Source: Vreelandella songnenensis
GTDB taxonomy: Bacteria > Pseudomonadota > Gammaproteobacteria > Pseudomonadales > Halomonadaceae
DNA: 64,000 nt
Assembly (NCBI RefSeq): GCF_003002925.1
Contig: NZ_PVTK01000001.1
Span: 62,001 to 126,000, forward strand
Reading direction: 5' to 3'
The notes under the pieces were generated by a model. That model saw only the letters and a program-made list of their open reading frames with translations. It was not told where the DNA came from and ran no database searches. A program made the position numbers and the translations under genes. Below are positions 20,277-26,335 of the stretch, in pieces. Position 1 is the stretch's first letter. Every line of letters begins with the position of its first letter.

Positions 20277-21233
20277 TTACTTCCAGAAATCGCGAATCGA
20301 CGCGATGCCCTGAGCACCCACGGCGCGGGCATGGTTGGCATCAAAGCGCGTCATGCCGCCAAGCGCAAATACCGGCATGCCGGCGCGCTCGACCAGCTGC
20401 TGGAAATCGTGCCAGCCGATGGGCGCGACTTCCGGATGCGAAGGCGTGGTACGTAGCGGTGAAAGCGTCACGAAATCACAGCCCAGCACGGTCGCCTGAG
20501 AGAGCTGGGTCTGATCGTGCGTAGAGGCGGACAGCCACTTGTTTTCGGCGATCGGGCGTCGATCAAGCTGCATCAAGCGCTCGCTGGTCAGGTGAATGCC
20601 GTCGGCATCTATCTGATCCAGAAGCGAAGGCTCGCCATTGAGCAGCAGGCTGGCACCGTACTGACGGCAAAGTGCCAGGGCGCGCTCGGCGCGAGCCAGG
20701 TAGCTCGCCTCATCAAGCTCCTTGGCGCGCAGCTGTACCAGTCGAATATTGTCTTCCTTGAGCGCCCGCTCCAGAAACGCATCGAAGCGCGCCTCATCAG
20801 GCTCTTCCATGGTAATCAGGTATTCGGTGGGCAGCATGACCGCACGCAGAATAGGCAGATTGGCCGCCGGGAAGGGATAGTTGACCAGCTCTTCCATGGG
20901 CACCCAGCGCACCGCCTGACCTTCACGACCAAAGGGCTCCCCGGCAAACTCATGCACCTGCCATACGTCCAGCAGGATATGCTTGTCCGGATATTCGTGA
21001 TGCACCCGGATCAAGGGCTGAGCGCGAATGATCTCGACACCCAGTTCCTCATGCAGCTCACGCTTGAGGCCTTCAAGCCCGGTTTCATAAGGTGCCAGCT
21101 TGCCGCCCGGAAATTCCCAAAGGCCGCCCTGGTCCACATTTGAAGGCCGACGTGCGATAAAAACCTTCTTTTTATCCGCACTCACCATGGCCGCTGCTGC
21201 AACATGAACCCGTCGTTTTACCATTACATTCAT
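20277..21233 (-). CDS. Nudix hydrolase fused to a thiamine-phosphate synthase-like domain
   Basis: A 318-residue two-domain protein. The N-terminal half (1-135) is a MutT-like Nudix hydrolase with the Nudix box starting at GGKLAPYETGLEGLKRELHEE, expected to hydrolyse 8-oxo-dGTP or related nucleotides. The C-terminal half (about 145-318) is a ThiE/TenI-type barrel with LRAKEL, DGIHLTSERL, SASTHDQ and PVFALGGM. This fusion downstream of argJ and secA is standard in Pseudomonas-like bacteria. The ThiE-like part may lack thiamine synthesis activity; sequence alone does not decide. The start is the first of two close ATGs, with a weak GGAAAAG site. Confidence 0.9.
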   Translation of the reverse strand: MNVMVKRRVHVAAAAMVSADKKKVFIARRPSNVDQGGLWEFPGGKLAPYETGLEGLKRELHEELGVEIIRAQPLIRVHHEYPDKHILLDVWQVHEFAGEPFGREGQAVRWVPMEELVNYPFPAANLPILRAVMLPTEYLITMEEPDEARFDAFLERALKEDNIRLVQLRAKELDEASYLARAERALALCRQYGASLLLNGEPSLLDQIDADGIHLTSERLMQLDRRPIAENKWLSASTHDQTQLSQATVLGCDFVTLSPLRTTPSHPEVAPIGWHDFQQLVERAGMPVFALGGMTRFDANHARAVGAQGIASIRDFWK

Positions 21234-22596: not shown

Positions 22597-25335
<2,739 letters not shown>

Positions 25336-25406
25336 GAAATTTCCACATCATCACGAGCGACCCGAAGGGTTTCGCCCTGTTCCGTATTAGGCAAAAGAGG
25401 GAGGTA
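25336..25406 (-). promoter_or_regulatory. secA leader with hairpin
   Basis: The 71 bases between the SecM-like stop and secA contain a stem-loop (25357-25375; CCC/GGG stem extended by GCG/CGC with a small bulge), a pyrimidine CCTCCCTC tract just after the upstream stop, and a weak secA Shine-Dalgarno. In E. coli the secM-secA junction folds to hide the secA ribosome binding site. The hairpin here lies just upstream of, rather than clearly over, the secA site, so similarity of mechanism is only inferred. Confidence 0.4.
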
Positions 25407-25769
25407 TCAGAAAATCGGATAGGTACTGGGCGGCCCACGCTGGGTCAGCACATCCCGGGCGGCTACCCGGCGATGGGCAACCCGGGATTCAGGCAGATCA
25501 AGGCGTAATGCCGCGATGCGCTTGATGCGACGGGACCAGCGCTTAAGCGCGCGCTTGCGCCTGGCGATCCAGAGTGACTTGGCGCGCAGGATGGCGGGTA
25601 CCCAGAAACAGACACAGGCGCCGCGCTCGGCACCGCGAAAGGCATCGGAAGGAACTAAACTGCTGGGTAGCAGGCAGCTCACCAGAAGCCCGGCCAGCCA
25701 CCAACGCGCTAGGCCATGACGACGCTGACGCCGCGGCATGGCTGAAAATTCATTAAGCGTTGATGACAT
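25407..25769 (-). CDS. Unrecognised exported-type small protein upstream of secA; SecM-like candidate
   Basis: A 120-residue protein of no family I recognise. An Arg-rich n-region is followed by a hydrophobic segment (about 22-40) typical of a signal peptide; LVSC (29-32) could be a lipobox. The mature part is short and highly basic (about 62-105), ending in RGPP at residues 111-114, only six residues before the stop. An AAGGAG site lies 12 bases before the ATG and third-position GC is high, supporting a real gene. Position directly upstream of secA, an export signal and a C-terminal Arg-Gly-Pro-Pro recall SecM, whose arrest sequence ends RAGP close to its C-terminus. The function is inferred, not shown; an ordinary small secreted protein is the alternative. 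Confidence 0.65.
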   Translation of the reverse strand: MSSTLNEFSAMPRRQRRHGLARWWLAGLLVSCLLPSSLVPSDAFRGAERGACVCFWVPAILRAKSLWIARRKRALKRWSRRIKRIAALRLDLPESRVAHRRVAARDVLTQRGPPSTYPIF

Positions 25770-25876
25770 ACTGTGGGTTGGCTCCTTGGCATGTTAGGCT
25801 CTGCATCCAGTAACGCGATCCGATGTATATGGTTACTGATCAAGAAATTAAAAGGGTTATCTTAGGAATCAAGCGT

Positions 25877-26335
25877 ATGAGTATAAAGGTTAAGCGTTCT
25901 CACGCACAGCCCATCTCCCGACTGCTCAACAAGTCCGGGGATATCGGCAATCTTATGCGCCAATCCCGCTTGATCGATCAGGCCCAGTCTCACTTGAGGG
26001 CCCATCTGCCCGAAGAAATGCGCAGCTACATCTTTGTGGGCGGCTTCAAGGAGGGTCGGCTGACGCTGATCAGCGGCCAGGCAAGCTGGCTGACCTGGCT
26101 GCGCTTCGAACAGCGCCGACTCTTGACACTGCTTCATCAACTGCCTGGCTTTGAGTCAGTCAGCGGGTTTAGCTTCAAGGTACGCCCGGTGCGCCCGGTT
26201 CAAGTGCCGCTGCGCAATACGCGCAGCCTTTCAGCCGATGCCGGAAAGACCCTGGCAGAATGCGCCAGCGACACTCAAAACCCGTCATTACGCAAGGCCC
26301 TGGAGCGGCTCGCTTCCCACGCGCCTAGCCAATAA
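25877..26335 (+). CDS. dciA: DciA-like (DUF721) protein
   Basis: A 152-residue DUF721 protein. The N-terminal domain shows SHLRAHLPEEMRSYIFVGGFKEGRLTLIS and WLTWLRFEQRRLL, typical of DciA, the ancestral DnaB helicase loader used by bacteria without DnaC. The C-terminal third is low-complexity. The start at 25877 has an AGGA site; the frame opens at 25823 but lacks one. DUF721 genes sit between lpxC and secA in Pseudomonas also. It is divergent from the SecM-like gene across 107 bp and convergent with lpxC. Confidence 0.85.
   Translation: MSIKVKRSHAQPISRLLNKSGDIGNLMRQSRLIDQAQSHLRAHLPEEMRSYIFVGGFKEGRLTLISGQASWLTWLRFEQRRLLTLLHQLPGFESVSGFSFKVRPVRPVQVPLRNTRSLSADAGKTLAECASDTQNPSLRKALERLASHAPSQ

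Follow-up and report, generated by a model that had tools for sequence, protein, structure and literature searches.

The window analyzed here, a 64,000-nt stretch of the Vreelandella songnenensis genome, carries a small gene directly ahead of secA, which raises the question of whether this upstream ORF (uORF) encodes a ribosome arrest peptide that monitors protein export. A sequence-only reading had proposed that its product does the job of Escherichia coli SecM with an unrelated sequence. We consider it highly probable that the uORF encodes an RGPP-type ribosome arrest peptide acting as a Sec secretion monitor for secA. Conservation of the motif, the preserved reading frame, and linkage to secA favor the SecM-like part of that proposal; by analogy with known peptides and from conservation, the peptide very likely stalls ribosomes, and we infer that the stall is likely to feed back on secA expression. 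The locus comprises the following features:

25407..25769, minus strand: the uORF, a predicted arrest peptide of 120 amino acids (stop codon at 25407-25409, ATG start at 25769)
25782..25787, minus strand: Shine-Dalgarno (SD) sequence AAGGAG of the uORF, identified from the sequence, 12 nt ahead of the ATG
22597..25335, minus strand: secA, the presumed target gene (Pfam SecA_DEAD, 7.5e-131)

The gene layout given by the sequence-only reading was confirmed: 120 codons, an AAGGAG, an export signal, RGPP at residues 111-114 followed by six residues and the stop, and a gap of 71 nt to the secA ATG at 25335 on the same strand, which is the minus strand. The gene order is ftsZ, lpxC, dciA (divergent), uORF, and secA, with ftsZ assigned by eye and the SecA, LpxC, and DciA neighbors confirmed by Pfam. 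The helicase loader gene dciA occupies 25823-26335 of the window, divergent from the uORF and between it and lpxC. The uORF is present in a single copy in the V. songnenensis genome. Its protein had no Pfam family above the cutoff and no NCBIfam or PHROGs match, no Pfam family common to 38 aligned relatives was found, and a search of solved structures returned no relative (best E = 3.1). The RGPP-type DNA pattern occurred at 57 forward and 66 reverse sites in a six-frame count of the genome; a reversed-pattern control gave 322 and 301 but differs in composition, so that nothing is inferred from the comparison. The start codons of 87 uORF orthologues were picked by a script with the SD score as part of the choice, and 75 of them had a GGAG no more than 20 nt away; the starts of L082, L091, and L099 are probably too far downstream, and C-terminal counts are unaffected by this.

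Selection acts on the peptide R-G-P-P and on the nine residues before it. The relevant features are as follows:

25428..25466, minus strand: conserved C-terminal block VAARDVLTQRGPP, residues 102-114, delimited by column information
25428..25439, minus strand: RGPP, the predicted arrest core, residues 111-114, assigned from conservation and from the toeprints of other RQH peptides

Across 87 distinct orthologues, in rows that had been selected for R[AGS]PP, the Arg and both Pro residues were invariant and the Gly was present in 86, the sole replacement being Ala (RAPP, in L080). The columns of the C-terminal block carried 2.2-4.3 bits, except for 1.49 at the position of R105, and the nine residues ahead of RGPP were kept bar one (V-A-A-x-D-V-L-[TS]-[RQ]). 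At the residue directly after RGPP, information fell to 0.99 bits, and the tail that follows varied from 1 to 21 residues; such an end of conservation and a variable tail are what a stall ahead of the tail would predict. Conservation in the protein peaks at RGPP, whereas the spacer and tail evolve fast with the frame kept.

Because the first rows had been chosen for R[AGS]PP, a second set was assembled by searching named genomes for the signal pattern A[GS]LLV[GS]CLLP; these candidates were confirmed and ranked by tblastn with the full-length window protein. This set, the best 80 of 166 by tblastn rank, is neither fully blind nor fully independent: 46 of its 80 loci have a uORF tail already present in the first set, the other 34 being new. 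It spans records of Vreelandella, Halomonas, Chromohalobacter, Billgrantia, Litchfieldella, and Halovibrio, and its nearest listed member is Vreelandella aquamarina MB598, with 84% protein identity. RGPP was present with secA 38-138 nt downstream in 79 of these best 80 of 166. The exception, L142 (AP019416.1), is a complete genome in which the uORF is frameshifted, with DVLTQRGPP readable in a different frame. The sequence-only reading would have been overturned by loss of RGPP among orthologues or by a broken frame in close relatives; the motif proved conserved, and this one locus was the only broken frame among the best 80 of 166.

To delimit the family, we surveyed Halomonadaceae, which we take to lie within the GTDB order Pseudomonadales. 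Matches to the uORF protein were found in 231 of 250 genomes and 19 of 24 genera. We then read the region upstream of secA at 100 loci, a non-random set made up of the 30 best matches, 40 picked by hand among the matches listed, and 30 genomes chosen singly (16 of the 19 without a protein match and 14 with one; G076, G086, and G094, all of genus g3 and without a match, lie outside the set). A uORF ending in R[GA]PP was present at 87 of the 100 loci, and secA followed directly in all 70 loci fetched by a uORF match. Genus g8, missed by the protein search, had a uORF with RGPP in three genomes (L098-L100). The uORF was absent from the other 13 loci (genera g3, g5, g22, and g24), and at 12 of these its site was taken by an M23-peptidase-like gene (L078, L083-L087, L089, and L092-L096; two called by Pfam at E ~7e-33, the rest by sequence or tail). 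The remaining locus, L090, had no M23-peptidase-like gene at the site before secA.

A profile search across the order matched 19 of 390 genomes, 18 of them Halomonadaceae; the other match was marginal and partial (E = 5e-4), in a 406-codon frame. The region before secA was readable in 73 genomes, representing 44 of the 46 other families seen in the order (f12 and f23 lie outside), and none of them had a genuine R-x-P-P uORF on scanning ORFs of at least 30 codons in ∼800-900 nt before secA with slightly differing regular expressions. These genomes, a few per family, were taken from those with coordinates and from one fill-in search; 58 of 60 were readable at first, to which 14 more and one rescued genome were added, and in G271 no secA was found. 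Two regex matches to RGPP were rejected: that in L255 is an out-of-frame reading through an apparent ABC-transporter gene (by eye), and that in L244 is antisense to a dciA-like frame. An M23-type pattern preceded secA in 50 of the 73 genomes (37 + 13, by regular expression). This distribution suggests that, of the uORF and the M23-peptidase-like gene, one replaced the other at the site upstream of secA.

RAPP/RGPP arrest peptides encoded upstream of secA were described in 2024, with a Pseudomonadales representative among those tested (Fujiwara 2024, PMC10987492); the window protein is thus not the first of its kind. The tested member of uA_RQH_Pseudomonadales, with R109GPP, is reported to arrest both E. 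coli and Bacillus subtilis ribosomes with fAP > 0.9 (PMC10987492). That group shares with the window uORF its place ahead of secA, a localization signal (putative in the window protein, judged by eye), a spacer of more than 30 residues (a criterion of the RQH family), and a C-terminal RGPP. The motif Arg of its tested member is residue 109, as in some Halomonadaceae orthologues, and residue 111 in the window. By its sequence features, with the signal judged by eye, the uORF fits the published RQH class. GTDB places Halomonadaceae in Pseudomonadales (PMC7498684), and the published group, matched by its description, is probably the Halomonadaceae uORF family, since none of the 73 genomes read elsewhere in the order had such a uORF. 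We found the name uA_RQH_Pseudomonadales solely in PMC10987492, and our literature search found no published work linking Halomonas with an arrest peptide or secretion monitor. RAPP-like families are described as having no overall similarity to each other beyond the motif (PMC10987492). ApdA and ApdP are RAPP peptides encoded upstream of secDF2 in other lineages, whereas the uORF precedes secA. The RGPP peptide uDF_RQH_Enterobacterales of Alteromonas naphthalenivorans, for which induction of the downstream gene by stalling has been demonstrated, acts on secDF2 by way of a stem–loop masking the SD, and no such stem is clear between the uORF and secA.

Toeprints of RAPP/RGPP peptides of the RQH class put the third motif residue in the P site (PMC10987492), and the cause of stalling is that the A-site prolyl group is held by the nascent R-A-P in a geometry unable to attack (PMC10951233). 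By analogy, a ribosome translating the window peptide would stop with Pro113 in its P site and Pro114-tRNA in its A site. Among cores swapped into SecM and ApcA, RGPP left the least reporter activity; it was generally the strongest core in other arrest peptides and belongs to the tetrapeptides that bacterial proteomes avoid most; a RAPP core also gives strong arrest in the peptides tested (all as reported in PMC12992588). The motif alone is no proof of stalling, because RAPP-like motifs are reported not to cause stalling in most of the E. coli and B. subtilis proteins that carry them (PMC10987492).

The uORF N terminus consists of a basic segment, MSSTLNEFSAMPRRQRRHGLAR, followed by a hydrophobic one, WWLAGLLVSCLLPSSLV, which we judged by eye to be an export signal. 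Three features describe this part of the protein:

25653..25703, minus strand: hydrophobic core of the putative export signal, residues 23-39, from the 38-sequence alignment
25674..25685, minus strand: lipobox-like L-V-S-C with invariant Cys32, residues 29-32, from the alignment
25467..25640, minus strand: basic spacer spanning residues 44-101, with weak conservation of its second half in orthologue alignments

In the 38-sequence alignment, L29, C32, L33, and P35 were invariant, and W23, W24, L25, A26, L28, V30, L34, and L38 were conserved at ≥90%. The pattern L-[VFLI]-[GST]-C was present in 85 of 87 orthologues with script-chosen starts; the other two (L091 and L099) had been given an internal start by the script and show LFGC in the longer frame, which brings the pattern to 87 of 87. 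An LLP after the Cys is unusual for a lipobox, and inspection by eye shows an A-x-A-like site in some orthologues as well. The distance from Cys to the motif Arg was 75-82 residues in the 85 orthologues measured. The mature part is basic, as had been noted, with 19 K/R vs. 4 D/E in the 66 residues from 45 to 110. With ∼80 residues between the signal core and RGPP, the signal should already be outside the ribosome at the stall. Engagement of the signal by the Sec machinery would then exert a pull that frees the nascent chain; when export is slow, the ribosome would remain parked on the uORF, and the longer stall may raise secA through a change in leader RNA or through shielding of the mRNA, the most tentative of these steps. 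If the peptide is such a monitor, trouble in export would be sensed and more SecA made.

We examined how a parked ribosome might act on secA from the leader, where two elements lie in the gap:

25355..25377, minus strand: small hairpin in the uORF–secA gap, with modest within-genus covariation and no T-run
25342..25345, minus strand: TGGA, a weak SD-like sequence of secA, identified from the sequence

In an alignment of 24 of the 35 leaders considered, the most alike ones, 92.2% of hairpin cells were paired (0 of 500 shuffles as high), the covariation score was 0.287 vs. 0.209 (0 of 500 as high), and 11 cells showed a double change vs. 6.1 (3 of 500 as high). The pairs with a double change (two; 275 of 500) and the further pair types (10; 434 of 500) showed no excess over shuffles in the same 24 leaders. 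The edge of a ribosome lies 15 nt beyond the first base of the P-site codon, and from an edge set there the hairpin begins ∼40 nt past a ribosome parked at RGPP. Placing a virtual ribosome at RGPP in 87 leaders raised the mean accessibility of the secA start from 0.427 to 0.476, with a change of more than 0.1 upward in 19 loci and downward in one. The gain had no peak at the stall position: blocks from ∼20 nt upstream to 60 nt downstream did equally well, and in the window leader the rise from 0.27 to 0.40 was already reached by a block 90 nt further upstream. Stall-specific unmasking of the secA start was not seen in the folds of these 87 leaders with many ribosome positions, the effect being unspecific. 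The gap itself ranges from 15 to 207 nt among orthologous loci. Rfam gave no match at gathering level at the uORF or leader (best chance match E = 0.11), and a scan of 25300-25950 found no promoter and three terminator-like matches, all inside the uORF and none in the uORF–secA gap. Because the folds are unspecific, the hairpin lies beyond the ribosome’s reach, and the gap is variable, coupling to secA may be other than the unmasking of an SD sequence in the manner of SecM.

These observations can be joined into a more specific but rather unlikely scenario, in which the uORF is Halomonadaceae’s own SecA monitor, its lipoprotein-type signal senses lipoprotein or early-signal engagement instead of secretion in general, and secA rises without SD unmasking; the sensor would have arisen in the family at the site that an M23 peptidase gene occupies in much of the order, and protection of the leader mRNA would perhaps raise secA. 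The leader data also bear on whether there is feedback at all. The peptide might stall to pace its own targeting, or to keep translation and transcription coupled through the leader and so prevent early termination of the secA transcript, with no feedback on secA; the weak unmasking signal fits this, and a gap of such variable length is hard to fit to one SD-sequestering stem. We regard the absence of feedback as unlikely, given the invariable linkage to secA in the 70 loci fetched by the uORF and the precedent of the related RGPP peptide that induces secDF2.

A secretion monitor for secA could alternatively descend from SecM itself, diverged until only its position and an R-[AG]-[GP]-P ending are recognizable. 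The uORF resembles E. coli SecM in its putative export, in lying at the same site between lpxC and secA, in having R-x-x-P near its end (RGPP in place of RAGP), and in its presumed job. However, SecM stalls at Gly-Pro with a different arrest sequence, whereas the uORF has Pro-Pro, and the SecM arrest sequence FxxxxWIxxxxGIRAGP, including its F, WI, and GI residues, was not found in the uORF or the 87 orthologues. PF06558 (SecM) had no match in the uORF, the 38 aligned relatives, or this genome; BLASTP against E. coli SecM gave only an off-register 9-residue match (E = 0.12), and hhalign gave a probability of 0.1%. There was likewise no PF06558 match in 274 sampled genomes of the class, although the E. 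coli control matched; as this sample held no recognizable SecM, it says little about intermediates. With an M23-type gene at the site in 50 of the 73 order-survey genomes (by regular expression), deriving the uORF from an ancestral SecM would not be a parsimonious account. By these sequence comparisons, the uORF peptide is not SecM, and it is very unlikely to be a true SecM orthologue that has strongly diverged.

The conservation pattern also separates the arrest peptide from an ordinary small secreted protein that keeps RGPP for a function after export. Conservation also extends to the signal region and, in the 38-sequence alignment, to parts of residues 44-70, as such a protein might require. 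Nevertheless, the stretch before the C-terminal block and the tail are weakly conserved next to a nearly invariant RGPP, the only swap seen is G to A, the tetrapeptide is among those most avoided (PMC12992588), and the gene adjoins secA, all of which make this highly improbable. A spurious ORF conserved merely through a DNA or RNA element is extremely improbable despite several overlapping ORFs in the region, as synonymous codons vary at the motif in the 87 orthologues (five for Arg, CGC/CGT/CGA/AGA/CGG, and all four for Gly and for each Pro) and the locus lacks an Rfam match at gathering level.

For an RGPP arrest peptide monitoring SecA, the family boundaries in Halomonadaceae, the lipobox-like invariant Cys, and the M23-peptidase gene at the site elsewhere are new here. 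Together, the orthologues form a natural set of candidate RGPP monitors across Halomonadaceae, with a nearly fixed distance from signal to motif and a diverged spacer. This set is suited to asking which residues beyond RGPP are required, what releases the arrest, and by what means secA is coupled without an obvious SD-masking stem. Relatives in Halomonas serve in biotechnology, where control of SecA matters for secretion. Elsewhere in the window, at 20277-21233, a Nudix (MutT) domain is apparently fused to a thiamine-phosphate-synthase-like domain, as judged by eye.
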